This document shows positions 13,228-45,299 of a stretch of 64,000 nt of DNA, one piece after another. A model generated the notes under the pieces. That model searched no databases. It was not told the DNA's origin and saw only the letters and a program-made list of their open reading frames with translations. The DNA is from Tetrapyrgos nigripes. Taxonomy: Eukaryota > Basidiomycota > Agaricomycetes > Agaricales > Campanellaceae. The translations under genes were made by a program, and so were the position numbers. Location of the stretch: contig JAACJM010000029.1 in the NCBI GenBank assembly GCA_013368315.1, forward strand, positions 372,001 to 436,000, written 5' to 3'. Each line of letters opens with the position of its first letter. Positions within the stretch are counted from its first letter, which is position 1.

Positions 13228-15440
13228 CTAGAGCACATGAGTACTTCTCCAAATGTCATTCATACTAATTCCCATTGAACAAGTTGTCAATCCTACGTGT
13301 ATTAAATTGGGTGGACAATATGCATCAGGGTGTTCATGATGAAACATTTCAATCATCTCCTTCAGGTTTGTCAATCCAGAAGCTGGTTCCCATGAATTTT
13401 CAGAGTCTGAGTAATCCAACCATTTAACCAAGTACTGAACTCCTCAGAGATTTCTAGTTGGTTTCGAGTCCAGAATTGCCTCAACGTTGTACTTGTTATC
13501 CTCTGGTAGTAATTCTGTGGGTTCACCTGGGTAGTTTACTGCATGCGCTTCAGTTTCTGTGTATGGTGATAGTAGTGAAGCATGAAATACTGGATGAATT
13601 TGCCAGGTGTTTGGCAGTTTGAGATGATAGTTAACTTCACCAATTATGTCAGTGATTTTGAAGGGTCCATGACAACAATTTGCCAACTTAGCTTTTGGCC
13701 TTGTTGTTTTCAAAAATTTTCTGTCTAATAACACCTTATCTCCAACTTTGAACTTCAATCCTTCCTTTATATGATCTTTATTTTTCTTTTCATCAACTCT
13801 GCAGTGGCTGTCAAGCTTGCTTTCAATTCTTTATGCAATTCTTCCAAGTTCTGGAGGTGTTCTTTGACTTTTGGTACATGTGAAGAAGGATTAATCAAAG
13901 GAAAGAGTTGAGGAAGGTACTCATGAAGTAATTCAAATGGTGATTTACCAGTAGCTGAATGGACTTGAGTATTGTGACAGAACTTGGCATATGGCAAGTA
14001 TTTGACCCAATTGTCCTGATGATAGTTACAGAAAGTTTGCAAGTATTGCTTGAGTTCTTGATTGAATCTTTCTATTTCACCATCTGTTTGCAGATGATAA
14101 GCTGTACTGAGAGCTGAAGTGATACCTAACTTAGTATATATTCCTCTCATAACCTGCCTCACAAATTGAGGACCTCAATCTGATATCATTTTGTCCCATA
14201 GGCTGTAACGTTGCCATGTATTGTTGAACAGTAAATCAATGTCCTTTCAGCAAGGGGAAATGACAACTATTTTGGTTGATCGATCTACTGTGATGTGGAT
14301 TGCATTAAAACCATCACACTCTGGGAGATCTGTGATGAAATTGGTTGTAATGGTGCCAAAAGGTCATTCTGGTATTTTGTTCAGAATTAGGGGTACATGG
14401 GATGAATGATTTTGTGCCTTGGTTAATTGGCAGGTAGTGCATCCTTCAACATAATTGTGAATGAAAACTGACATACTGGGCCACCAAAATTCTTGGCTAA
14501 CCAATTCATACATCTTAAATCAGCCAGGATGTCCTGTGGTAAGACTATTGTGGTGCATCTTGATGATATCTCTTCGTAGTTGTTGATCATGAGGTACATA
14601 GATCTTCCCTCAGAACAAGACCATTCCATCCTTGTAGTTCCATTCCTGTAGGTTTTTGACTAGTGAATGGGGACCATTGTTCAATATAACTTCAAGAGCA
14701 CTCACAACTTCAGTATCTTTTCGTGGACATTCTTGAATTCGTCTTTTTAGCTCTCCATCTCCTATCGCAATCACTGCTCCTGGCCTCATAGTTCATATCC
14801 TGAAGAACTTTGGATCTAATAACACCCTATCCTTGTTATCATCCTCTACCCCCTCTTTATGATCTGGTTGTCAGGATAATGGATTGTTACGATTAAGAAC
14901 TCCGGGTTTGTGGATCAGAATAAAGTCAAATGGCATAAGAAATAATGCCATTCTTGCTTGTCATCAGCTTAATTCTGAGCTGTTCTTGAATATTCTAAGT
15001 TCTTGTGATCAGTTAAGATTTCAACAGTATGGAGTGCTCCTTCTAGATAATGTCACCATGCTTCTAATCCATGTATGATCACCAGTAACTCTTTGTCATG
15101 GATATCATAATTCTGTTCTGTTTCTGATAGGGATTTCGATAGATATTCCACTGGATGCCATTGATTGTCAGGCCCTTGTTGAGTTAAAATCCCTCCTGCA
15201 GCATAGTCAGAGGAATCAACTTCAACTCTATATGGTTTAGCACTGGTGAAGAAGTGAACACATCTTTGAGTGCCTGAAAGGCTTCTTCTGTTTCAATGGA
15301 CCATTTCCATGACTCATCTTTCTTGGTTAGATCGATTAGAGAAGTCCTTTATGAACTGACAGTAGAAGTTCCCGAACCCAAGGAATGATTGAACATCCTT
15401 GACTGATTGAGGGGTTGGCCATTCAGTGACACCTTTCACT
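13228..15440 (-). pseudogene. chromovirus B: RT end, RNase H, integrase, chromodomain
   Basis: The minus-strand pieces in order are: the RT thumb [20 protein letters not shown]; RNase H with VEVDSSDYAAGGILTQQG, EYLSKSLSETEQNYDIHDKE and LTDHKNLEY; the integrase HHCC finger (KMHHNSLTTGHPG ... CTTCQLTK); the catalytic core with TDLPE, then a D followed by stop (MISD*GPQF), and LQTDGEIERFNQELKQYLQ; the GPY/F-type segment FKVGDKVLLDRKFL...IHPVFHASLL; and a chromodomain split by a stop (YNVEAILDSK, then YLVKWLDYSDSENSWEPASG). The chromodomain targets insertion to chromatin in this clade. Several stops (for example around 13443, 14163 and 14580) make it inactive. Confidence 0.85.
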
Positions 15441-16550
15441 TTAACTGGACCACCGTACTTGTCGTCGAGTAAGGATTTTGGTGGTTGAAAAATATTCCAA
15501 ATTCTTGTGATCTGTGACGACGTCAATAGGGGATCTGGAGCCTTCCAGGTAATGCTGCCAAATATGGAATGCTTCAAAGATTGCAACATCATAATTAAGT
15601 TCGGCAGCATGGAGGGTGCGGGAATGAAATGCGATGGGATGGATTTCACTGGAATCGTACTGGAGGGACAGGATGGCTGCGATAGCATAGTTGGAAGTGT
15701 CGGCTTTGACGATAATCTGCTGATTTGGTACCCAATGACCAAGGACCGGAGTGGAAGTGAAAGTGTGCTTAAGGTATTCAAAGGATTGTTGGCATGCTGT
15801 AGTCCATTTCCACTGGATAGCCTTTCGGGTGAGACGGGTGAGGGGTACAACAATGTTGGAATAATTATAAATGAACCGCCTGTAAAAATTACAGAATCTG
15901 AGGAAAGACTGTATATCCCGGACTTTCCGAGGAACAGGCCAGTCCAGAATAGTGCAGATTTTAGTGGTATCCATTGTAAGACCCTTGGGAGAGAGAGTGT
16001 AGCCTAGGTACTCCATGGTATCAACAGAAAAGATGAAGAGTCTGTGCTTGTGGAGCTGACAGAACACTTCTCGGACATGCTTCCAGTGATCCTCTTTGTT
16101 TTCTGAGTAAATCAGGACGTCGTCGAGATAAATGATGACAGTAACATCGAGGAGATCTTTGAATATATCATTGATAAAGCACTGGAAAGCAGTGGGAGCA
16201 TTGCTGAGACTGAAAGGCATGACTTTCCATTCAAAGGAACCGTAGCGTGTCTGGAAAGCAGTTTTCCATTCATCTCCTCAGCGATGTGGACCAAGTGGTA
16301 AGCGTGACATAAATCCAACTTGGTATAGATTTTCGCATGCCTAGGAGTGTCTAAAAGTTCAGAAATCAGTGGAAGCAGATACCTATCCTTCTTCGTAATG
16401 GCATTGAGGCCACGGAAGTCAACGCAGAGCCAGAGCTCTCTGTTTTTCTTTTTCACAAAGAGGACCGGAGCCGTGAGGGAAGAGAAAGAGGGTTTGATAA
16501 AACCCATGGCTAGATGTTTGTCAATGAATTTTCATAATTCCCCTAGTTCC
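15441..16550 (-). pseudogene. chromovirus A: reverse transcriptase and RNase H
   Basis: The block 16507-16112 reads FIKPSFSSLTAPVLFVKKKN and LWLCVDFRGLNAITKKDRYL (RT domains 1-2). The frame then shifts to MPFSLSNAPTAFQCFINDIF ... VTVIIYLDDVLIYS, which contains the YLDD active site, followed by the thumb/connection [13 protein letters not shown] and an RNase H with [18 protein letters not shown] and DHKNLEYF. The frame ends at about 15441, exactly where chromovirus B sequence begins. At least one frameshift near 16220 separates the two RT blocks, so it is inactive. Confidence 0.85.
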
Positions 16551-17402
16551 CGATCGGATACCAGATAAATCCAGGCAACTGGTGGTGGTGCACCATCGAC
16601 CAATTCGATTTTGAGATTGTAGGGACAATGCGGAGCCAGTTCATCTGAGAGTCCTTTGTCAAAAATGTTGGAAAAGTCAGCTAGATATTCGGGAGCCTTT
16701 GGATCAGGCTTGGATTCTGAATTTGATGTGGATGTGGCCTGGGCCTGTACTTCTGGTTCTGGATTGAGTTGGAGAACCATTGGATCCAGCTGATCTTGTT
16801 TACAGCAGCGATGGAAAGCTGCTGCTCCAATGATAGTGATATGGGTGTCATCCACAGAAGACGCCATTTGCGTGATGGAAGGATAGGAATAAAATGGGTT
16901 CGTTCGGCCAGGAAGGTTTCTTGGAGCAAGTGGGTGGCTTTGAAGCCAGAAGTGGTGTGGAAACCATAGGACCTGGGTCAGCGACAAGTGGCGACATGCA
17001 GAGTCCAGAGCTCGGGGAGACAGCAACCAGTTCAGGCCCACAGAATGCGATGTTTCCTTTTGCCCAGTCAACCAACGGGTTGTAGTGGGAAAGAAAACTA
17101 TATCCTAGGACGCCCTTACAAGTTGAGTCAAGATTAGTGACATAAAAATCAAGGGAAACTCGCTCCCCTGTCAGAAAGTACATGGAAACAGAGCATACTT
17201 TATTAATTGTACATGGGACAGAACCATCAAGCAAACGCAAACAAACAGGAGAAATGGGAACGGTAGGTAGGGAATGTTCAGAAACATATAGGGAATCGAT
17301 AAAACAATCTGATGAGCCAGAGTCCAAAAGCGATGGAAAAGATAGGAAAGTGTTCAGATTGTTAGTATGGCATATTTTCAACTGAAGTGTAAGGGATTTC
17401 AT
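16551..17402 (-). pseudogene. chromovirus A: aspartic protease region
   Basis: LLDSGSSDCFIDSLYV carries the retroviral-type DSGS protease motif, followed by GVLGYSFLSHYNPLVDW, the second conserved loop of Ty3/Gypsy proteases. A linker rich in Pro/Ser leads toward the RT, with a frame change between about 16930 and 16848. Next in order are DFSNIFDKGLSDELAPHCPY and VAWIYLVSDRELGEL, the usual sequence just before RT domain 1. Confidence 0.8.
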
Positions 17403-17539
17403 GGAAAGAGCAGTGGTGTTGAGAGTGACCTCTTGTATGGCATGATCCCAGTCAACGCAACTCCGATCTCGTGCCGAGGTATCAGAGCTGTGGACTATTT
17501 TGGGGACTGCTCGGAAGCAGTGCTACCCGTGTTGTTAGA

Positions 17540-19700: not shown

Positions 19701-22700
19701 TCATACACAGGAAGGGGAATAAAGATTAGTCCATCCTCTGCCAAGATAATTCCATTTGAATGATAGCTGTGTAGGATGATGTTTGGATATGATCAATTTT
19801 GTGTATGGAGTGTAGACAGCATTTCGCAGGTGAGTGGGAAGCCATATTAAATGATAGGATGTGCCTGTTAGCATGAACCAGCCAGAGGAATCAAGACGCC
19901 ACAATGGATTTGAAGAGATCAACAGATTATCAGAGGCATGAATAGACATGTTATTCCCCTTTGGCAAAAGCTCAACAGAATGAACCAAATCTGAATGCCC
20001 TGTGAGCTCTCCACTTGCTGCATCCCACACATGCACAGATGAGTGTTCCCCCCCAGACACAATCTGATCCCCCTTTGGTGAAAATGCAACAGACTGAACT
20101 GAACCTAAGTACCCTGTGAGCTCCTTGAGCTGCTCTCCACTTGCTGCATCCCACACATACACAGATGAGTCATCTCCCCCAGACACAATCTGATCCCCCT
20201 TTGGTGAAAATGCAACAGACCAAACCCAACCTGAGTGCCCTGTGAGCTCCTTGAGCTGCTCTCCACTTGCTGCATCCCACACACACACAGACTTGTCTCG
20301 TCCCCCAGACACAATCTGATCCCCCTTTGGTGAAAATGCAACAGACCGAACCCAATCTGAGTGTCCTGTGAGCTTCTTGAGTTGCTCTCCACTTGCTGCA
20401 TCCCACACACGCACAGAAGAGTCTTCCCCCCCAGACACAATCTGATCCCCCTTTGGTGAAAATGCAACAGACAAAACTGAATCTGAGTGCCCTGTGAGCC
20501 TCTTAAGCTGCTCTCCACTTGCTGCATCCCACACATGCACAGAAGAGTCTTCCCCCCCAGACACAATCTGATCCCCCTTTGGTGAAAATGCAACAGACCA
20601 GACCCGACTTGAGTGCCCTGTGAGCTTCTTGAGCAGCTCTCCACTTGCTGCATCCCACACATGCACAAACTTGTCTTGTCCCCCAGACACAATCTGATCC
20701 CCCTTTGGTGAAAATGCAACAGAAAAAACCTGACCTGAGTGCCCTGTGAGCTCCTTGAGCAGCTCTCCACTTGCTGCATCCCACACACACACAGAAGAGT
20801 CTTCCCCTCCAGACACAATCTGATCCCCCTTTGGTGAAAATGCAACAGACCAAACCGGACTTGAGTGCCCTGTGACCTTCTTGAGCTGCTCTCCACTTGC
20901 TGGATCCCACACATGCACAAATTTGTCTTCTCCCCCAGACACAATCTGATCCCCCTTTGGTGAAAATGCAACAGACTGAACCCGGCCTGAGTGCCCTGTG
21001 AGCTCCTTGAGTTGCTCTCCACTTGCTGCATCCCACACACGCACAGACTTGTCTCGTCCCCCAGACACAATCTGATCCCCTTTTGGTGAAAGCGCAACAG
21101 AAAAAACCCAACCTGAGTGCCCTGTGAGTTTCTTGAGCTGCTGTCCACTTGCTGTATCCCACACACGCACAGACTTGTCATCTCCCCCAGACACAATCTG
21201 ATCCCCTGTTGGTGAAAATGCAACAGACTGAACCCAATCTGAGTGCCCTGTGAGCTCTTTGAGCTGCTGTCCACTTGCTGCATCCCACACACGCACAGAC
21301 TTGTCTTCTCCCCCAGACACAATCTGATCCCCCTTTGGTGAAAATGCAACAGAAAAAACCCAACCTGAGTGCCCTGTGAGCTCCTTGAGCTGCTCTCCAC
21401 TTGCTGCATCCCACACATGCACAGATGAGTCTTCCCCCCCAGACACAATCTGATTCCCCTTTGGTGAAAATGCAACAGACCAAACCAGATGTGAGTGCCC
21501 TGTGAGCTCCTTGAGCTGCTGTCCACTTGCTGCATCCCACACACGCACAGACTTGTCATCCCCCCCAGACACAATCTTATCCCCCTTTGGTGAAAATGCA
21601 ACAGACCTAACCCAATCTGAGTGCCCTGTTAGCTCCTTGAGCTGCTCTCCACTTGCTGCATCCCACACACACACAAACCCCTTCCCCCCAGACACAATCT
21701 GATCCCCATTTGGTGATATTGCCACACAGATGACTTTGGATTTTGTTACAATGTGCATGAGGATAGCTGAAGAGTGTGTTGCTGACACTTCTGGGATATT
21801 GGGAAATCGGGGTTTCCAGTGCCTTGATACATGTGACTGTGGATCCCAGGTACTAAGAGCTGACACATAAAGGTGAGGAGTGGACTTGCACATCTCACTG
21901 CTTGTGAAAGACCTGCAGAAGCTAACAGCATCTTTCCAAGTATGAATGGAAGGCTCAACATGCTATGAAAAAAGTTAGATCAGTTCACGTCAATGACATT
22001 AGCACACACCTTGTCTATCCAATTCTGTGCCAACTGCAGAGCACGCATTGCATCAATCCTGGCATTCAGAAGATTGACTGCCTCCAACCAGAACAGCAGG
22101 AGATTATTGACAAAGGATTGGGGTATGTTCTTCAGTGTATCACTTGGCATTGACTGCTCAAGATGGGTAGTCCAATAGATGACTGCATATCGGAGTGTCA
22201 GATCAATCCTGTCTGCCACACAGTTTTCTAGATCTGGTATATCCTTGTCCATGATGAATGATGATTCCAGTCCACAGATGTTGAAGTGGAGCTGCTCCTT
22301 CATAATGTCATAGCAGTGTTGGACCAGGGATGTGTGGACTAGACTAACATCACATCTGGGATCAGAGCATGCTGTTGATGCAAGTGAGTCCTTTGGGCAA
22401 AGGATAAAGTCTGCAAAGGAGGCATGGTAGGTATGAATGGTCCCATCTTGTGCTTGGTACATGACAGCATGCAACTGGTCAACAACAAATGACACTGCTT
22501 CTTCATCAGCTTTGATGAGTGCAGAGACCACTTGGATAGAAATGGGGCATTCTGCACCAAGAATCATATGCAGAATATTTAGATAGTGTTGTTCAATATC
22601 ATTGTCACTGTGGTAGAGGGCATCTTGAGTAATCCCAGTGTAAAGTTTCTCAAGCTGACTGTTAGACTGGGGCAGGCCTGATGCATTGAGAAGCTTTTGA

Positions 22701-24709
22701 ACAACACGCTCTTGAATGCTCTTTGGAGTCTTCCCCCTTCCATCTGGGTCAGCCATCTTGACCACTGTTGCAGCATAGATGAACAGGCCATCTGCATGCT
22801 CAGATATGTCTTGTAGTATGTATCGTTCTACTAGAGGAAGAGCCTCCTCCATGTACAGCAAGATGTCTTCCTCAACCTTCTTTGTTGGTACATCCTGCAG
22901 ACGACACACAGCATTTGGCTCAAATGAGCTGCAAAGCTTAGCAATCTCTGGCTCAGTGCGGCTGGTGACAAGAAAGCGCAATCCATCTAATTTGCTGTCC
23001 CTGACAGCACCCAATAGCTTTTTGAGGAAAAGGAAGCCATTTTCATTCTCATCCAGAGCATCAATGACCATAATGCAAATAGGAAGGTCCCTGGTACGCT
23101 CAGAAGAGCTCATCTGCCAAGGTTTGACCAACATTTCCTCAAACTGTTTATCAAGCTTGTCTGTAGCAAGCCCCGAATCCCCCTCCAAAGCACCCACAAG
23201 CTGGCCAGCATAGGATGAGGAGACATCAGCAAGACGTCGGCATATTGTTGGCAGTAAATACTGTGGTTTGCCACTGTCAAGCTGGCGAGAGGCAAAAAAG
23301 GATACTACAGGACATCGACCTCCTGAATCATTAGTGACAGGGCCAGTGGTTACTGTGCTATGGATGAGATATTCTATTTCCTCACAAATTGTCATTGCAA
23401 TTGTTGTCTTGCCCATTCCCGCTGCACCTGTCAACCAGAACACAGGTGCTGCATTTTCTGACTGTAGCCAATGTCGAATATCCTCCAGTACTTCTGTACG
23501 AGTGCCTTTTGTACATGCCCTCCTAACCACATCTGATCCATAGATGCCAGACGTATATGCTGCTGCAGATGCAATGGGAAGATTCTGCAGGGCCAGATTC
23601 TAAAGGACCATCATGTCAAAGCCTCGTCAGAGCCAGTATAAAGGGAACTTACTTTGCGAATTGTGCTGGTATCACGTTCTATAGCCAATTGAAGTGCAAG
23701 CTAAAATAGACTAGTATCAGCAACAAATAAACATGGAGAGGTGAGGAGACTCACTCTGAGGTTGCCGATCACTTGCTCAATATTTTTGTATGCAGATAGC
23801 AAATTCTCAGCATCAGTTGTGCCTTGAGTGATGCGCATCAGCAACCCATGGGTCTGCATATTACGGATCTTGTCTCCTTCCTCCTTCAGAGTCCTGTGTA
23901 GGACATCAGGTTGACCGCTTCTTATAGCGATAATCAATACTTACTTGGTGCACCCAAGGATACCTACATATAGGTATGACGCCTTATCCCCAAATTGATA
24001 GTCCCGTAGTCGATCTTCCAGAGCTCGTAGAACAGGTTGGACCTTCTCAATGCGCTTGAGCGTATTGTCCATCTCGCTCCAATTGGATTTCACTTTCTGC
24101 TTTGCGTGTCAGCTCTTGGCCTTCTATCAGTAGCGGATGACGCACCTTTCCTAATTCAATAGCAGCAACTACACCACGAAGAACGGACTCGACGATTGGT
24201 ACCCCAGCAGTAGCCTCCTTGGCAATGTTCAGCGCCTCGTTAAAGCCATCGCAAATGGTATTGACAATTCCTTGAGTTCCTAGATGACAGTCATCAGCTC
24301 TAATAGATCGACGAGCAAAGATTACTAACCGTCTGTTGACGAAGGTTGAGTAGCCGTCGCCGACGAGATCTGAGCAATCGGCGGAGGTGTACCCGATGCG
24401 CGTGTAGCAGTCGGCAAGGCTGGAGCAATCAGCGGGCCTTGAGCATCCAGCAGGGCCTGAACAGTTAACGAAGGTTGATTGGAAGATGGGACGCCCTCGT
24501 TATGATCAAGATCGGCGGTGGAGGTCCGAGGCGTCGCATTGGAGGAATGGTGACCGAGTGGATTTGCTGAGAAGACAGCGATATTAGCAGCATTGCGAAA
24601 TAATCTCTCAGTATAGCATTGCGTATTTGATTTGAAGGGTCTTACATCGAGGTTGGTTTGGATCCTTGTTTTTGAAAATTTTCCTCATAGATTTCTTCAC
24701 TTGCTTCAT
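19701..24709 (-). CDS. NACHT-WD40 STAND protein (HNWD/HET-E-like NLR), NLR-2
   Basis: I can splice an intact 1,541-aa protein from eight exons: 24709-24646, 24566-24330, 24279-24146, 24096-23945, 23893-23755, 23700-23653, 23599-22010 and 21962-19701. All phases agree and introns are 46-80 nt. Residues 1-258 form a variable helical N-terminus. The NACHT NTPase has Walker A GAAGMGKTTIA near residue 316 and Walker B ICIMVIDALDE near 422. The usual helical linker (HVEPSIHTWKDAVSFCRSF ... STPHLYVSAL) follows, then 14 WD40 repeats of 42 aa, then the conserved fungal C-terminal tail (WLPTHLRNAVYTPYTKLII). In this family ligand binding by the repeats triggers NTP-dependent oligomerisation and a death or immune response (heterokaryon incompatibility in Podospora HET-E/D). 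The effector domain is not a recognised HET or PNP domain. It is paralogous to NLR-1. Confidence 0.9.
19985..21715 (-). repeat. array of 14 near-identical WD40-coding units (126 bp)
   Basis: Units of 126 bp encode GDQIVSGGxDxSVxVWDAAS, then GEQLKELTGHSxxVxSVAFS and PK. Nucleotide identity between units is very high, and most changes fall at the same few codons (the residues after GG, around VWD, and between GHS and SVAFS). All three minus-strand frames stay open for long distances, because the repeats share one sequence without stops in the alternative frames. Confidence 0.9.
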
Positions 24710-36074: not shown

Positions 36075-36083
36075 CCCTAGACA

Positions 36084-36140
36084 CGGGTATGAGAAATTTG
36101 CGGACACCCCCTTGCGGACACCCTGCGGACACCCATTTTT
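36084..36140 (+). repeat. left TIR of the MULE
   Basis: AAATTTGCGGACACCCCCTT, then two further GCGGACACC(C) units. It matches the inverted right end. Confidence 0.8.
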
Positions 36141-36220
36141 CATTGCTATGAACCTATTCTTGTCAAAAACCATTGTTTCTATTAGTTTATGGGATAATAC
36201 AAACACTCCTACCACCTGCT

Positions 36221-36917
36221 ATGAGTAATCAGAATGATGGCCTTTTGTGCAGGAAGCTAAAGTTTTGGACTTGTGACCTGGACACTTTTGAATCTTCAAC
36301 ACTTTCAACATTTCGTTGGCTCACTTTTGTAAAGATGAGCTTGTTTGTAAGTATCCTCCTCCAAATATGTATAGTTCAAGTATGTAGTCTAAGTTTTTAT
36401 AGCAAGGCTGGCGTAGAAAGCTGGCCATATTTCTGTATCCAGACTTGGAGACTGAGCAACTTCACAGCAATGAGGAGCCACCTCATACAATGAGCAAATC
36501 TGTCATCAATGGTGTGTATTTTGTTGATGCTATCACAATCATGCAGTTTGCACTGACTTCTATTTTTACTCCTATTTTTAAATTTAGAATACACAAACTC
36601 TTCAATTCAGGTTCCAGAGGACAGCATAGCCAACTGTGGTATGTAGAATTTGCTATCATAGCTAAATGGTGTCAATCTGAGCTATTTGAAAAGATCTACC
36701 TTGCAAACCTGCACCTAAGGATGCCAGTCCTAGAGTGAAAGACAACCATCAGATGAATATAAATCTGAGTGCTACCAATGCAGAGATGGTCCAGGTCCAG
36801 GTCTGGAGTGAGGGTAAGATCTTTACTATATCAATCACTTCTTGATGAATATACCTTAAAACTTATCATTCTTCTTATAGGTTTTTTTTCCAAAATGAAG
36901 GGAAGCACTGGTGACAG
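36221..36917 (+). other. probable 5' exons of the MULE protein (structure uncertain)
   Basis: An ATG at 36221 opens MSNQNDGLLCRKLKFWTCDL ending at a gtaagt donor near 36349. Further short coding-looking segments follow at about 36410-36510 (YPDLETEQLHSNEEPPHTMS) and 36610-36820, each with plausible GT..AG borders. I could not fix a single consistent splice path to the first secure exon at 36918. Confidence 0.4.
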
Positions 36918-39368
36918 TCAATTGCATCACATTACAAGCATCTCCAATGGTATGTGGAAGTCCCTTTAACTGTGGAATGGTGTCTGAGTGAATTTATAGC
37001 TGGGCATAACACTCAGAATAATGCACCTTTGACTGTTCAGCCCCCATCTACTGTACCAGCACTGCAGAAACCAATTCAAGACAAAACTGTCATAGTCCCA
37101 TCTGCTCCAGCTCACCCTACAAATATAGCAGTATATCCTGTAGATCTAACAGATCCTGCTCGTCTGACTACATTTGTTCCACTTGAATCTCCACCAGCAC
37201 CTCAGTGTCGTCACAAAAATGATATGAGTGTGCCATTCACCTGCATTGACTTGCTTGAAGGTGGATTTTGGAATGGGTTCCCAAATGGAAAATTTGCTAT
37301 TGACCTGGACTACTCGACTTTTAGTGCACATAAGAATCTTGCAGTTCAGTGGGCTACACGGGGCTCCAGTGGAGCTAATGGAAAGAATGGTCAAAGTTTT
37401 ACAGTGAATGGTGAAACAATATCCCAGGGCAGAGAGAGCTACAAGCAATGTCTCGGTATACTCCGGTGCAGGAATGAAAATTGTGATATCATCACTCGAC
37501 CTAAAACGCATGCTAAATCACTGGAAAAGCAGACAATAACACAACAGTGTCAGTGTGGTGCCTCACTTGAACATTTCCCTTGTGAATCCCGTTCCTACCT
37601 TATTGAATATGGTCAGGTTGGCACAGATATCTCAACTTGTAAATATCGATACATCAATGGTCAACCCCACAACCATCCCAGGCTTCCCTACGTCAAGCAT
37701 CTGACAGCCCAGGAGTCAAAAGATACCAAAGAGCATCTTCAAATTAATCAAGATCAAACTCCCTTGCAAAGCTATGCAGCTGGCAAAGACTCTGAGGGTA
37801 AAACAAAATCAGCACGAGAGATTGGACAATGCCTTGGAAACCCCGATACTTTCCAATATCACTGCAAGAATTTCAAAAACAGTGCAAAATCAGAAGTTGG
37901 ATCATCATTTATCAATCAGTTCCACTCTTGGATCAAGCGGCACCGTGATGAAGTCATCATGAGAGAAAATACTGTGGGTAGAGAGGTAAGTTCACTAATA
38001 TCTACCTGTTTGGACCTTTCAGTAACTAAGATAAATAAACAAACAAATAGGATGAATGTGTCATATCATTTCACACCAAGTGGATGCGAGATCAACTTTT
38101 GCCAAAGGCAGTATTAATAGAAGGACCTTTGCCACTGGAAGGAATGTTAACAGATGGAGCACACAAGTACTGGTCAGACCTCAATTCTGTGTTGATTTCA
38201 ACCACCACATTCTGTCCAGGAATTGATAGATGGGTCCCCTGCATGTTCAGCTTTGCCAATGGGGTCACCACTCGGCATTACCATTGGCATTTTACTAGTG
38301 TGATTAAGAGCATTTTTGAAGCTGCACTAGAATATGACATGGAAATTAAAGATGAATTGTTTGCATTGGTGAGAACTCTTTATCAAGACTAAATTAAATT
38401 ATATCTCACTGATTTGAATCAAAAAGGTTGTTGATTTTAGTGATGCACAACGACTTGGTTTTATATCTGCATTTGTTGATTGTTTTATGGACTGGAAGGA
38501 CAACACTCGGACACGTGCTGAGCTTGAGAAGGCTGCCCAGGAACTTATCAAGGGATGTAAATATCATTTTGAGAAATCTATGACACGTGTTTCTCGGCTT
38601 GGTAACCATGTGCCACCAGAATCAAGAGACAACTTTCTAGAAACCTGCAGGCAGATGGTTGAGACAGAGAATCCCGGTGTATTCAATCAATTAGTGAAGA
38701 TAATGCAAGAGAGATGGCCAGGGCTGGAAGCATGGCAGAGATGGTGGCTAGCTCCTGAACATGCTAGTATGATTTTTAGGAGTCAACGAACAATGGATAG
38801 CACACTTGCCTCCAAGCTTCCTGATACAACAAATGCAGAGGAATCTCTGCACTCTGTTATATACACTATTGCTGGTAAGGAATCCTGATATATGTCTCAG
38901 AATATTACTCAATTTTCTGCCAGGCCAAAACAAGGATATTGTTCCTGGATGTGATGGTTTGCTCCTAGTCTCACAGCATTTTCAAGGCCTGTATGACTCT
39001 TATAGTAGTAGGTTTGGTCTAATTTTTGAGAATATCTCTCACTGATCTTCAATGCAGTTGGCCAACCAATTCGGTATGGCCGATCTCAGCGCCAGCGTAA
39101 GCTTGATCGGCTTGCAGCTACAACAATACCAGAAACCCCAAAACGTAGACGCAGCAGTCAAAGTCATACCCCTTCCCCTAGAAAACGTGACCGCTCTGCA
39201 CTCAGGGAGGGTCGCGCCCCTGATACTCAGTCCAACCTCAGAAAATCTAAGAAACAAAAGCATGTCAAGATTTTAGCTCTCAGTAGCTCTGGTTCTGAAG
39301 ATGAGTTGCCTTCATCACCTAAAAAGGCAAAAAAAGGAGCAACAGATCAAGATTCCAGTCTTGGATAG
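36918..39368 (+). CDS. MULE transposase with GCM/WRKY-type zinc finger
   Basis: Secure exons are 36918-37985, 38051-38368, 38427-38874, 38924-39007 and 39058 onward, all in phase. The first exon carries a zinc-binding module: CLGILRCRNENCDIITRP, then CQCGASLEHFPCESRSYLIE and KYRYINGQPHNHP (Cys..Cys..Cys..HxH), as in GCM1/FLYWCH/WRKY-like fingers of MULE proteins. The MULE DDE core follows: D in LTDGAHKYW, the VPCMFSFANG..THxYHWHF-like strand region, D in VVDFSDAQRLGF, the diagnostic CxxH in GCKYHFEKSMTRVSRLG, and E in PDTTNAEESLHSV. The chain continues with GQPIRYGRSQRQRKLDRL into a Lys/Arg/Ser-rich, NLS-like segment. TAG at 39366 ends this frame, but the neighbouring frame continues at once, so this is probably a one-base frameshift. 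It should cut and paste the element. Confidence 0.85.
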
Positions 39369-41749
39369 CTTTTCTTCCAAACATGATAAAATTCCTGTAT
39401 CCAAAAAGAAGATGTCACAGGGAAAGGAAAAAAGACCTGATTTATCTGCTCCACTGTCAATAGATCTGGCAATTACCAAGGAATTTGTTAGCTACCCATG
39501 GTCACGTAACTCTTGCTGGCTTGATACATCATTGCATCTTGTGTATATTACACTAATGTGTCATGGACATTGGGAAGAGTTTGCAAGCTTTGCTGCTCCT
39601 TGTGCTGGACAGGATCCCACCAAGTGGCCAATTTCATACTTGCACAAAACTCTGAGTGACCGGAGAGCATGGCCACTCTCTACTTTTGCAGGATCTCACT
39701 CTGAGGATGATGGATCACAAAAACTTCAGAACATACGTGATAGGTTTAGACACATACTCGCTGGGCTACCCCGTTGTTTGTCAGGAGAAGAGACCTCATA
39801 TCATATAGTAAGTTGATCTCTTTTTATAATACTCAGATATGCTCAGTTTATATGAATGCAGGAACATGAATACCATTCTGCTCTAGTAAGACTGTTATAA
39901 TCAATTTTTAACATTTTGAAACTTATTATTTCTCTAGTATTGGCTGTACTACTTGATTACAGCCCCAAATGCCAAGCGTTGTGATGGTCCCATTTGTCCA
40001 GATGCAGTCAGATTCTTTCTTCCTGTCATTCAAAGGGTCTCCAGTTGCAGTGAGGGTCACTATCAGGTTGGGCATCCTCGCGTCACAAATTCTCAATGGC
40101 AGGAACCAGCTGCAAGGGACTTTAATCTCTTTAAAGGCAATATAGGCAACTGGTTTGAGTCACTCTTTAACTTGTCTTCACTGGAGGTTCCACAGAGCTT
40201 TGAAGAATGCTGGAGACATCACACAAGAGAGGGTACAAATGATCCAGATATATATTGTCAAGGAAGTTGCCAAAAAATGGAATTTGTTAGCTGGATTCCC
40301 TCTGTACTCATTATTCGGCCAGGTGTGAGTGAGGAGGGCAAGCAACCTGATTGGGATTTTCCTTGTGCGATGTATCTAGACACCAAATCATCTAGCAAAA
40401 AGAGTGGTGCTGTATACAAGCTTGTGGGCCGGATGTTTTCAAACGGAACACATTTCAGATGTATTACACTTATCCCAACAACTGGTGGAAATTCAGTTGC
40501 TTTTTTGTATGATGGCATGGAGCACAATGGCTATGCCCAGCAGTTGAAGGGGAAGATTGCAGATTTGCTGGGTGGAAAAACATCACTTTCTGGTTATCAC
40601 ACTGTTTGCAGTTTCTATAGCCTTGAAGGTGGTGTCAATGCTCAGAAGAAATTCCACCAAGACTGTATCAAAACAGCACGAGAAAAGCTTGACATACAGC
40701 TAGATGGGACCAATTCAGCCACTTTGGTCAAGGCTGGGTACAGAGTCATGAAAGTGGAGGAAACCAAGAGATGGAAACCACATTACTCAGTTACAGAGTA
40801 TCAACAAACAGACTCTGACCAACAAGTAATTCAATCAATTTCACCTCATTCCAACGCAAGCTCTGGATGTCCAGTGACACCATCACGGACAATTCTCTCT
40901 AGTTCTCCACCACCTTCATCACCCCTTCCTATACTCTGTCAATGTGGCACTGAGAATGATGGTCATCATGACAGTGTAAAACAGGACACAGTGCAATGTG
41001 ATCAATGTCAGCGGTGGTCACATTTAGCCTGCCTTGTCAATCGGTTAGAACCAACAATTGAGGGAGCATTCATATGTCATGTCTGCAGTGGTCAATCACT
41101 GTTGGCCTCAAAGAGGTTGGAAATCAGACCACCCAATTGTACTCAAATGTTGCAGGATGTTGCTAATCGACTCTAGTAAGTTTATTAGCCCTAAAATTGA
41201 TTCTCTTTGACTAATCTACATCAGTGCTGGGAGGACTGTCTTACTTCAGATGACTGCCAGAGATAAATTTTATTATCCAGGCCGTCTTCTCCATGGGGAA
41301 AAAGGCAAGTGGACAGTCAAGATGTGGCGGGGCATCAAACATGAGAATGCAAACAAGATATTAGAAGGTATCCCCATAAGCAGGATAGTTGATGGGCTCT
41401 ATGGCGACCGTGAGGGTCGACGAGCAATCAGGGTATGTCTTTTACGATTCCAGTGCTTGAAAAAGTCTAATACATATCTTCTTAGCTGGGCAAATTTACC
41501 CGGATACATGAGGAACGTGATCCAGAAGATGTTGCCACTGACTGGCGAGCTTTTCCCTATAACACTGAAGTTGACAAGGCATTATACAAGCACAAGATCA
41601 CTCTTCAGGAGATTCTGCTTTCCACAATTAGCTCCGACTTTTCAGAACTGTCTGTAGAGTGTGTTCCTGCCCTGTCTCTATACCTTGAAGACATTGACTT
41701 GGGATACACATTGCCAGAAGGTTACATTGCTCTCACTGGGGAAAGATGC
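39340..41749 (+). CDS. USP-like cysteine peptidase + PHD finger, fused downstream of the transposase
   Basis: This part continues the transposase frame after the 39365 shift. Exons are: to 39807, 39938-41175, 41225-41432 and 41486-about 41749, all GT..AG and in phase. YPWSRNSCWLDTSLHLVYIT resembles the Cys box of C19 ubiquitin-specific proteases. GTHFRCITLIP...AFLYDGMEHNGYA resembles the His box and Asp position, so a catalytic Cys-His-Asp triad is plausible. LCQCGTENDGH ... VQCDQCQRWSHLACL ... FICHVC is a canonical C4HC3 PHD finger (a histone-tail reader). A conserved region follows: RDKFYYPGRLLHGEKGKWTV (a tudor/BAH-like beta segment), WRGIKHENANK and DPEDVATDWRAF. In established families USPs remove ubiquitin and PHDs read H3; their role in a transposon is my inference (protecting transposase or modifying chromatin). 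Confidence 0.75.
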
Positions 41750-41767
41750 CACTGCTTCGCATGGCAA

Positions 41768-42537
41768 GTTACGAGGCCCATAGTAGGGTTGCAGCGTTAG
41801 CCATATTAGGAATATCATACTGTGGTTATTCAGTAGATAAGTAATCATGCAATCAATGCCTATTCGAGGCTATTCGTACTTAGAACCCCAGTGTTTCTAT
41901 TGCTCGGCTTGTACAACTGAATAAAGGCAGGGCATGTTGCCGTTTAGCTGCTGTGAAGCCGGGCAACCGAGTTAATTAAATCGCGGCTTTTTCTGATGGC
42001 CTACACACTACAGCTACTTGCAAAACTCTAGACCCTCAACGGCGTGTCCGTACTTCAGATCTTTGTTTGCGCCTGTGTAAAATCTATTCATTCGTAATAG
42101 ATTTTACACAGGCGCAAACAGAGATCTAAAGTACAGGGAGAGCGTCTAGGGTCTAGAGTTTTGCAAGTAGCTGTAAAACCTCGCTATATTCTTGAACCGC
42201 GTTGTAGCTGATCATGATTGCAAAAACAGGGCTGATCAATTGACTGACAGCGCGTACTTGTATGTTTGTGTATTGGCTACATAAATATGTACATACATAT
42301 ATATCGTAAGGTGAAGGCGAAAGGACTTAGGAAAATCCGACGCGACTTGGGTTATGTCATTGTTTGTTCATAGTTGACGACAGCTTGAGTCAGATCGAAA
42401 AGCTGATGCGTCGTGAGTCTAGACCGATCATTCGGTTGTCGGCATCATAGACTGGCCAATAGAAATTGCAGGCGTGGAAAAGTTGCCATTGAATTGCAAA
42501 GGTCACCTAAGTTAACTCAGCCTAAAGGCCTCGTAAC
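41768..42537. mobile_element. small TIR element (GTTACGAGGCC family), copy 2, inside the MULE protein gene
   Basis: Ends GTTACGAGGCC (41768-41778) and GGCCTCGTAAC (42527-42537) interrupt the open coding frame (…PEGYIALTGER | … | MFGHPCPSYFTGG…). Subterminal TTAACTCAGCCTAAA and the adjacent CTGCTTCGCATGGCAAG match copy 1 at 32.7-33.4 kb, so the true left end may lie about 20 bp outside. It contains a nested 163-bp palindromic MITE. No coding capacity. Confidence 0.6.
42011..42173. mobile_element. TA-flanked palindromic MITE (163 bp)
   Basis: Inverted arms CAGCTACTTGCAAAACTCTA / TAGAGTTTTGCAAGTAGCTG continue inward through GACCCT and TTTGCGCCTGTGTAAAATCT, giving an almost complete hairpin. Flanked by TA at 42009-42010 and 42174-42175, the signature of Tc1/mariner-type MITEs. 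Confidence 0.85.
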
Positions 42538-42540
42538 ATC

Positions 42541-43398
42541 AATGTTTGGACATCCTTGTCCATCATACTTTACAGGTGGGATCACTACAGATGACAGGGC
42601 TCGAATTTTGAACTGGATTCATGAAAATGTTGCTGGAATTGGAAAAGATTTCACAGCTGCTGATTTTGAATTGTGTTTTGCACATGCTCGTACACTCTTC
42701 TTAGCTCATTCTCAACGGGAAACATTTCTGGAACACGTTAAAGAGGGATCATCTGTTCAGGAAATAGAATGTTTGATTCTTCAGCAGGCATGGCAGCGAC
42801 TAGTGGATTTCACTGGAAAGACTGTGGATGGAAAGGACAAAATACAAAGGGCAGATGTGGATGGGGAAGCACTCATGATATTAGAAGCAGCAATGTTTGA
42901 TAGATCAGCAAAGGCAGGCAAAGCAGGAAGAGAGCAATGGGGCCTAGATGTTGGTCCTCCAGAGGATTCATGGTGGCCCTATGATGGTCCAGAGAAATAT
43001 GCACCTGATATCCAACATGCTACTGAATCTGACCTTGAGGTAAAGTAATATCATTTTTCTTCTGAATTTGTTTCTAATTAATCTTCCAGGAGGGTGAACA
43101 GTGCAAGGTTATACGGGAAAAGATTGAGGCAGAAAACAAAGCAAAGCGGATAGAGGAAGAGAAGAAAGCACCTCCCAGACCCAAACCAAAGCCACGGTTC
43201 AAAGAGAAAATCTTAAACAGTTCCAAAGAGGCTTTACAAAAAGTTGGAGAATTAAACAAGGGAATTGCTACAGAGCCAACAGAGCATCATCTACCATATC
43301 AATCAACACGTTCCAAGCGCAAACTTGTTGCAGAAAGGGAAAATCATGAGACAGAAGATCAACACCAATACAAGAGGCTACGCAGGCAAAGAAAGTAG
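42541..43398 (+). CDS. C-terminal exons of the MULE fusion protein
   Basis: Two exons, 42541-43039 and 43090-43398, are joined in phase by a 50-nt intron. The protein begins MFGHPCPSYFTGGITTDDRA and continues through a helical domain (FELCFAHARTLFLAHSQRET, QAWQRLVDFTGKTVDGKDKI). The tail is highly charged: KRIEEEKKAPPRPKPKPRFK ending KRLRRQRK, a strong nuclear-localisation-like terminus. I recognise no family. It probably continued from the frame that ends at about 41749 before the nested insertion. A separate gene is possible, since the ATG at 42541 is usable. Confidence 0.6.
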
Positions 43399-43456
43399 TC
43401 TCTTTGCTAAAATTGTCTATTTGCAGAAATTAGAATGAAATTATTGTAAAGCTATT

Positions 43457-43591
43457 ACAATGTATTACCCTGTATAAAGAGGCTACGACCTGATCCTAAT
43501 TACAATGTATTACCCTGTATAAAGAGGCTATGACCTGATCCTAATTACAATGTATTACCCTGTATAAAGAGGCTACGACCTGATCCTAATA
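43457..43591. repeat. 3 x 45-bp tandem repeat
   Basis: Unit acaatgtattaccctgtata followed by aagaggcta(c/t)gacctgatcctaatt, three times with one or two differences, directly after the stop codon of the MULE protein. It may form its 3' untranslated region. A diverged single unit recurs near 44195. Confidence 0.85.
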
Positions 43592-43599
43592 CAGTAAAT

Positions 43600-44753
43600 T
43601 CTTTGATATTCAAAGTTGACAATTGTTAAGACTGACAGTAAGCATTTCAATGCACTTGAGGTGCATGAGAAAAATTTTGAGTGCCTTCAGTGTCACAAGT
43701 TCATGGAGAGATTGACTTGTGAGTCTGTAGGAATATTCTCTTGGAATCCTGTATGGAGATTATCTGTAAAAACATCAGGAAAAGGATTGTGGCTGTGCTT
43801 ATCCTACTTTTTTCAGAAAGTTTACACTCTGTGGGCAGTGTTGGAATGCATCAGTATTGTAACTGGCACTCCTGAGGCTGTCTACAGGGTGTCCACAAGG
43901 TGTCTGCAAAATGTCCTCTCAGAAAAATTTGTGGCTGTGCTTCTCCCACTTTTTTTCAAAAAGTTTACATTCTGTTGACAGTGCTGGAATGCATCAGGGT
44001 TGTAACTGGCACTCCTGAGACTGTATACAGGGTGTCCACAAGGTGTCCGCAAGGTGTCTGCAAGGTGTCCGCAAGGTGTCCGCAAGGTGTCCGCAAGGTG
44101 TCCGCAAGGTGTCTGCAAGGTATCCGCAAGGTGTCTACAAAGTGTTACAAGTGCAAAACAGGATTACAATCAGTACAACTGATTCTGAAGCTATTACAAT
44201 GTCTTCTCTTGTACAAACATGCTAAGACATGACCCCAATACCATCAGTTGTTTAATATTCAAAGTTGACAGGTCCAAATGTTAAAATTATGGTGAGTACA
44301 GATTACCTTGGAGTTATTATAATGTATATCTTCCAGAAACATGCTATGACCTGTCTCTTATACCACTAACTAGTTGATATTCAAAGTTGACAAGTGCAGA
44401 TGCTGGCAGTCAGCTTCTCAAAGCACTTGAGATTTGTGAAAAACATTTTGAGTGTCTTCAGCATTGCAATTTCACAATGATATTTGACTCATGAGGATGT
44501 ATGAATCTTCTCTTAGCACTCTTTAGAGAAATTATCTGTGGAAACATATCAAAAAAAAAAAATTGTGGCTGTGCTTATCCCACTTTTTGAAGATTTTTAC
44601 ACTCTGTGGACAAGACCTTGAAAGTGTCTCTGAGGCAAGATATACACTTGACACAGGAGGTACAGTCTCATACAGTATCTACAATCCTATCTACAGGGTG
44701 TCCGCAACCCTTCAAGGTGTCCGCAAGGGGTGTCCGCAAATTTACCAGTACCG
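43600..44753. repeat. duplicated subterminal region and right TIR of the MULE
   Basis: TGATATTCAAAGTTGACAA followed by about 250 nt (…GTGGCTGTGCTTATCC.ACTTTTT…TTTACACTCTGTGG) occurs at about 43606 and again at 44385; partial copies also appear at 43920 and 44255. Arrays of AAGGTGTCCGC / AAGGTGTCTGC lie at 44030-44130 and the terminal ones at 44690-44740. The array is the inverted counterpart of the left TIR units. Confidence 0.75.
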
Positions 44754-45299
44754 CCCTAGACAAACAGTCGTAAACTACTGACAAATTGCCCGAAATGGGC
44801 ATAAGGATATGGAATAGGGCAAATCCCTATTCCACCAACGACCGTGGCATCGACACCGACACAATATATACCAAAAGGCAACACCATCGGCGTCGTCCAC
44901 ATGTATTGTCATGGAACATGAATGAGTAATTACAAGTAGCTATATGGCTACGGTACTGCTGCCGGGTAAGTCTGGACGTTGACAATTGCTCCCATACGCA
45001 ATCTACTTATACTTGTCTATGCACATATACAGTCTTTGAAGCTCTTGCCCTGTGGGGGCATATGTAACGTCGGCAGGTGGAATCATACCTCGTAAGCACA
45101 TGTACATGTTCACAGTTCAAGTTATGAATGAGTCGGCTCAGTGACCATTGACTTGACAACCACTGAAGTCTGACAGACGTTCACTGAGTGTTCCGAATGT
45201 TCAGGAGTGGCACGCATGCTGTGGCAAGTTTCTTAGCAGGAACAAACCTACTGAACTCTAGTTCTTGAGAGGCGCGCGTCAAAAGCTGTCGTTGGCACC

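Follow-up and report, generated by a model that had tools for sequence, protein, structure and literature searches.

A MuDRF-like transposon was identified at positions 36084-44753 of a 64-kb window (the whole stretch of DNA analysed here) on contig C29 of the 98.5 Mb genome of Tetrapyrgos nigripes (Agaricales, Campanellaceae). On balance, the evidence favours an element in which one gene fuses a transposase, a predicted ubiquitin-specific protease (USP) fold and a PHD finger, with a GCM domain that likely binds repeat arrays at the element ends and a USP domain that likely removes ubiquitin locally. The architecture is solid at the level of sequence, and the intact copies support a single polypeptide in which a transposase resembling those of Mutator-like elements (MULEs) is linked to a peptidase domain of predicted USP fold and to a PHD finger. 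The element is called MuDRF-like because its GCM domain and its target-site duplication (TSD) fit that group. The gene and its parts are listed below.

36753..43399, plus strand: gene of 12 exons, open in copies L010 and L016 and frameshifted in the window copy
36753-36813, 36881-36949, 37000-37985, 38051-38368, 38427-38874 and 38924-39007, plus strand: exons 1-6
39058-39807, 39862-39885, 39938-41175, 41225-41432, 41486-43039 and 43090-43399, plus strand: exons 7-12
37269..37700, plus strand: GCM-type zinc DNA-binding domain
38153..38840, plus strand: DDE-type transposase core with D407 (38153-38155), D481 (38433-38435), C522xxH (38556) and E616 (38838-38840)
39478..40648, plus strand: predicted USP-fold (peptidase C19-like) domain with Cys808 (39514-39516), His1085 (40451-40453) and Asp1105 (40511-40513)
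40937..41086, plus strand: PHD finger, C4HC3 with C-x-C as first pair (Pfam PF00628, 25.7 bits, cut-off 24)
41225..43399, plus strand: conserved C-terminal region with no named fold and a basic tail at its end (conserved columns; ratio of nonsynonymous to synonymous substitution rates, dN/dS, 0.28)
41736..42534, no strand: nested insertion of about 799 bp (bounds accurate to within a few bases), missing from other copies

The reading path was followed in an alignment of 12 rows, consisting of the window element and 11 other genomic copies (L009-L019). In L010 and L016 the gene is open from ATG to stop and encodes 1748 residues in 12 exons with GT-AG introns (aligned-copy model). L011 contains one extra stop, and 10 of the 12 rows, the window included, have stops, frameshifts or deletions. 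The window copy carries one frameshift, in exon 39058-39807, and its exon 41486-43039 is split by the nested insertion, a dispersed repeat with many partial matches throughout the genome. A 167-bp hairpin insert lies inside this insertion at 42009-42175 and was found at one other place (C138:186806) among the best 40 of 413 candidates.

The last conserved transposase block, IRYG (residues 660-663; present in 8-9 of 9 sequences), and Cys808 of the peptidase domain are encoded together by exon 39058-39807, which is open in L010 and L016. His1085, Asp1105 and the PHD finger all fall in exon 39938-41175, and this exon is open in the window copy as well. Because single open exons join transposase to peptidase residues and peptidase to PHD residues, the fusion does not depend on splicing alone. 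The same parts are united in the deposited Tetrapyrgos models P0001, P0002 and P0003, all of which seem to contain errors: P0001 leaves out the second catalytic D and one exon of 8 residues, P0002 includes a flanking gene, and P0003 changes frame midway through the peptidase.

A protein search with residues 115-700, from which the peptidase and PHD are excluded, returned 11 proteins. Three are from Tetrapyrgos and seven are from other Agaricomycetes of six genera (Cytidiella, Trametes, Mycena with two, Coprinopsis, Panaeolus and Schizophyllum). The remaining protein, P0011, is annotated as a helicase, overlaps by 11% and was set aside. With the C-terminal half as query, P0012 (Coprinopsis) and a fragment, P0013, were also recovered. 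Of the eight fusions from outside Tetrapyrgos, the His/Asp box was found in 8/8, the NSCW Cys box in 7/8 (the gene model of P0004 is without that stretch) and the PHD in 7/8 (it is missing from the short P0005, which ends early). The PHD scores above the Pfam cut-off in P0008 and P0009 and below it in P0004, P0006, P0007 and P0010, and is recognized by motif only in P0012. Residues 820-1480 as query returned the three Tetrapyrgos proteins only, and the word-based search is therefore limited in reach. In the annotation of P0010 (Mycena kentingensis), a glyoxal oxidase is attached to the transposase-USP part; the likely cause is a faulty gene model or an insertion next to the oxidase gene.

Loci in the source genome were clustered from matches to a peptidase query and to a 263-residue transposase query, giving 51 and 73 loci, respectively. 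The first seven residues of the transposase query (VSSLIST) derive from intron read-through in the window ORF, but the hits listed begin at query residue 6 or beyond, which leaves the loci unchanged. A transposase lies directly upstream on the same strand at 47 of the 51 peptidase loci, and the four unpaired loci include two copies split by insertion or deletion (C145 and C295). An earlier note on this DNA had proposed a single polypeptide, read through one frameshift and one nested insertion. The path agrees with the alignment to the other copies, and the polypeptide with the intact L010 and L016 and with the domain order in other genera. The note had also suggested examining whether the domains co-occur in Agaricomycetes, as the counts above now describe, and had considered that the peptidase/PHD part might be a separate host gene; the paired loci speak against the latter within this genome, the stand-alone search elsewhere being limited.

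Selection on the modules was estimated from one comparison, that of L010 with L019, an older copy to which it is 78% identical across the element, leaving out residues 629-659, where L019 differs by one base in length. The dN/dS values of the GCM, DDE, USP, PHD and C-terminal modules are 0.25, 0.33, 0.34, 0.21 and 0.28, respectively, and those of the linker and N-terminus are 0.48 and about 0.5. In this one comparison, each module appears under purifying selection, and the peptidase and PHD are about as constrained as the transposase. The architecture is more than chance, since all modules lie within 0.21-0.50 and the same domain order occurs in other genera.

The D-D-CxxH-E order read earlier in the transposase core is conserved among the relatives. 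Pfam MULE has no match in the family members, and none of its 26 matches in the genome lies at copies of the element. The peptidase domain is predicted to have a USP fold with an active Cys808-His1085-Asp1105 triad. In structure comparison of the predicted model, all 50 matches listed are USPs or Pan2, and the Foldseek matches include Ubp8 of SAGA in a structure on the ubiquitinated nucleosome. In the model, Cys23 begins helix 23-38, His300 is just before strand 301-308 and Asp320 ends strand 314-320, a placing on secondary structure that is typical of USPs. The Cys, His and Asp/Asn are found in USP order and place, and a Cys-box domain without a papain fold, which the note had also considered, does not agree with a comparison that returns USPs.

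The family PHD profile matches the Bye1 PHD with an E-value of 2.2e-9 and also matches the fingers of SHPRH, EBS, MLL5 and Set3; with the PF00628 match, this upholds the C4HC3 finger recognized earlier. The basic C-terminus named with it is visible in the sequence. The tudor/BAH-like segment placed between them is without support: Pfam and PDB profile searches of the C-terminal region gave no match beyond PHD-type and weak zinc-finger rows.

The ends of the element carry the following features.

36075..36083, no strand: left TSD CCCTAGACA (window sequence; 9-bp TSDs at other copies)
36084..36133, plus strand: 5' end, CGGGTATGAGAAATT followed by TGCGGACACC repeats (3 x TGCGGACA), from the sequence and copies
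44031..44135, plus strand: 3' subterminal array of 9.5 copies of GGTGTCCGCAA (reverse complement TTGCGGACACC)
44699..44753, minus strand: 3' end, repeats containing TGTCCGCA followed by ATTTACCAGTACCG, from the sequence and copies
44754..44762, no strand: right TSD CCCTAGACA (window sequence)

The first and last bases of the element (36084-44753) are CGGGTATGAG and CAGTACCG, respectively. The zinc finger first described as GCM/WRKY-type is of the GCM type, and 3/8 family members have a Pfam GCM match. In the window family, TGCGGACA occurs 11 times and is confined to the initial 50 bp and the final ~710 bp. In a sister family of the same genome (copy L024, with a 9-bp TSD), ATGCGGGT, given in a passage of PMC8859918 as the consensus octamer of animal GCM1/GCM2, occurs 10 times against 0.09 expected, and 0/200 shuffles reach 10. 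Five of these octamers are in the first ~85 bp and five in a block ~0.7 kb before the 3' end. From these arrays at the element ends it follows that the GCM domain probably recognises the end repeats.

The anatomy of the element suggests a mechanism. The GCM domain would bind the repeat arrays at the element's own ends and the DDE core would cut and paste, while the PHD finger would keep the complex on chromatin via a histone tail. The USP domain would remove ubiquitin in cis, mainly protecting the transposase complex from ubiquitin-dependent turnover on host chromatin. Since a transposase and a USP-like domain are joined across six other genera, ubiquitin is likely removed, as the element moves, either from the transposition machinery itself or from the chromatin around it. 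Deubiquitinase activity, its substrate and a histone ligand are inferred.

Several observations weigh against this reading. The exon structure is taken from predicted splicing of genomic copies. Candidates in the protein search were restricted to 0.55-1.75x the query length (~961-3059 residues), so that short transposases lacking the USP part were out of reach, and 26 of the 73 transposase loci are without a detectable peptidase within 9 kb, which means that many copies are truncated or that the domain is not universal. The exact octamer ATGCGGGT is found in one of the three families examined: the window family has its TGCGG core alone, the third family (L041-L044) has other repeats and the older copy L019 reads TGCAG. 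The fold model was built from 7 sequences. No USP/UCH profile match was obtained up to E 1 in 7/7 members, nor any PDB chain sequence match for the domain up to E 1, and for this reason it is labelled USP-fold and not a sequence-level member of C19; of the USP-type peptidase claimed in the earlier note, the predicted fold stands and a Pfam or PDB sequence match was not obtained. Pan2, a USP fold that is catalytically dead, is first by Z among the matches listed, tied with real USPs. The Cys box, NSCWLD, has an invariant Asn at Cys-2, and Trp at Cys-5 in place of the Asn that is the usual USP oxyanion position.

The Pan2 ranking and the atypical oxyanion residue favour a serious rival in which the USP fold is catalytically dead (a Pan2-like scaffold) or acts on SUMO or NEDD8, as in the SUMO peptidase USPL1, whose Cys box the CWLD motif presumably resembles. 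Outside Tetrapyrgos, however, His and Asp are kept in 8/8 and Cys in the seven gene models that span it, and the dN/dS of the USP domain is about as low as that of the transposase core; this rival is rather unlikely. An equally serious rival places the action of the USP domain on chromatin: recruited to nucleosomes by the PHD, it would deubiquitinate H2A or H2B to open donor or target sites. The presence of USP residues and PHD in one exon, the Bye1, EBS, MLL5 and Set3 fingers among the best PHD-profile matches, and Ubp8 among the Foldseek matches are consistent with this role. Ubp8, however, is one among very many USP matches with similar score. H3K4me3 readers carry an upstream aromatic in the histone-binding cage; here Trp1273 is kept in 8/8, but the upstream cage aromatic is not conserved by eye. 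A histone role is likewise regarded as rather unlikely.

Self-cleavage, by which the peptidase would chiefly release the transposase from the C-terminal half, would suit a fusion of 1748 residues that has a papain-like fold and a linker under weaker constraint (dN/dS 0.48), but it is improbable, as USP folds cleave after ubiquitin-type tails. A wrong merger of two adjacent genes by gene prediction is the least credible explanation: the exon joins are predicted from genomic sequence and apparent model errors occur in P0001-P0005, P0007 and P0010, but single open exons hold residues from both halves, selection acts on the linker, and the two are united in annotations from several genome projects.

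Removal of ubiquitin by a transposase-USP-PHD fusion thus remains the favoured reading. A wider proposal is put forward tentatively: that there is a widespread mushroom transposon class with a full set of chromatin tools inside its transposase, in which GCM reads ends, PHD reads histones and USP erases ubiquitin, and that the animal GCM domain and its octamer descend from transposon-end recognition. This possible origin, with the octamer as a transposon-end fossil, is suggested by the exact-octamer arrays at the ends of the sister family. The arrays would connect an animal developmental regulator with the code by which a group of fungal transposons recognises its ends. The USP domain, if active, would be a USP-type deubiquitinase built into a transposase, and it would offer a direct test of whether transposons counter ubiquitin-based control of transposases or chromatin. 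The question is testable in yeast because there are near-identical recent copies, two intact versions and one cysteine to mutate.

The 9-bp TSD and the element ends reported earlier are present in the window sequence and agree with the perfect 9-bp TSDs that 3 of the 11 aligned copies have of their own: L011 (CTCCCTTCG), L012 (TTCGCGATC) and L018 (GGTGAGATA). An exact-motif search for ends found no TSD pair in the other eight. L010 and L016 have both ends, but their flanks look swapped, hence the lack of a pair; in L009, L013, L014, L015, L017 and L019 at least one end was missed in that search or the contig end was reached. The left flank of L010 matches the right flank of L016, the left flank of L013 matches the right flank of L010, and the left flanks of L014 and L016 match each other. 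These apparently swapped or shared flanks of L010, L013, L014 and L016 would be either assembly chimeras or products of inter-copy recombination. With positions 39000-40800 as query, the source genome contains at least 10 matches at 99-100% identity (the window included, one partial). Below these come matches at 89% and 82%, then a family near 69% and others. The copies arose recently, as the window copy shows 21 differences from L010 over 7868 aligned sites, and L010 shows 4 from L016 over 7824. L012 (C178:78700-88300) appears to be inserted within a GH7 cellobiohydrolase gene, and the annotation of P0002 contains the start of a cellobiohydrolase before the transposase parts and its end after them.

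Elsewhere in the window, remains of a reverse-transcriptase element, Gypsy-like by eye, lie at 15314-17522 on the minus strand. Two large open frames at 19701-23599, also on the minus strand, appear by eye to encode a NACHT-type NTPase and, after it, numerous near-identical WD40 repeats. The source genome is very rich in KDZ transposases (at least 173 Pfam KDZ matches).

Compared with USPs (C19) and Pan2, the domain has the same predicted fold and the same order and placing of Cys, His and Asp, but no sequence match and an atypical Cys box. Plant MULEs with a Ulp1 peptidase also carry a peptidase of a ubiquitin-like system, but theirs has the Ulp1 (C48) fold and not that of USPs. In Helitrons and Helentrons, VTD and OTU deubiquitinases are fused to the transposition protein, and passages of PMC9741609 suggest that they shield proteins required in transposition. 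The element described here similarly fuses a transposon-encoded deubiquitinase (here predicted) to a transposition protein, but those enzymes belong to other deubiquitinase families and to rolling-circle elements, and the term PHD does not occur in the text of PMC9741609. The Asp-x-His motif given there for VTD is not present, as His1085 comes first and Asp1105 follows 20 residues on. Fungal transposons with TET/JBP dioxygenase and oomycete MuDR with SET likewise carry chromatin- or DNA-modifying enzymes, although different ones, according to the relevant parts of PMC12730594. The same parts place TET/JBP genes in other superfamilies (Kyakuja, Zisupton and others), and give a TSD of 7-8 bp for the KDZ members that they treat. 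The present element has a TSD of 9 bp and Pfam KDZ matches in 0/8 members, and is not assigned to KDZ.

Rehavkus is a MULE-like group described in passages of PMC6446971 from insects and annelids only, with a 9-bp TSD, one open reading frame, a PHD and a minisatellite before the 3' terminal inverted repeat. The present element shares these four features by description and a kinship is possible, but its host is a fungus, and the words peptidase, protease and ubiquitin are absent from the main text of PMC6446971. The earlier note, which knew of no MULE class with a USP-type peptidase and a histone reader in one polypeptide, needs correcting to the extent that a PHD finger is already listed for Rehavkus.

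The closest resemblance is to MuDRF, for which passages of PMC3164196 describe a single protein that combines a GCM domain with a DDE transposase of distant kinship to MuDR, a 9-bp TSD, and hosts among the rusts (Puccinia), Laccaria, Schizophyllum, Coprinopsis and Naegleria. The GCM domain, 9-bp TSD, single protein and occurrence in Basidiomycota are shared, as compared by description and not by Repbase sequences. Arrays of GCM sites at the ends are not described in those passages, and the words PHD, protease, peptidase and ubiquitin do not occur in the main text of PMC3164196. Within the searchable open-licence literature, no description was found of a USP-type peptidase in a MULE or MuDRF, or of a PHD in MuDRF. 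The undescribed class of the earlier note is thus known as regards GCM, DDE and the 9-bp TSD, while its USP/PHD content was not found described, and the conserved transposase-USP-PHD fusion appears to be a new description in the searchable literature for a class that is itself known.

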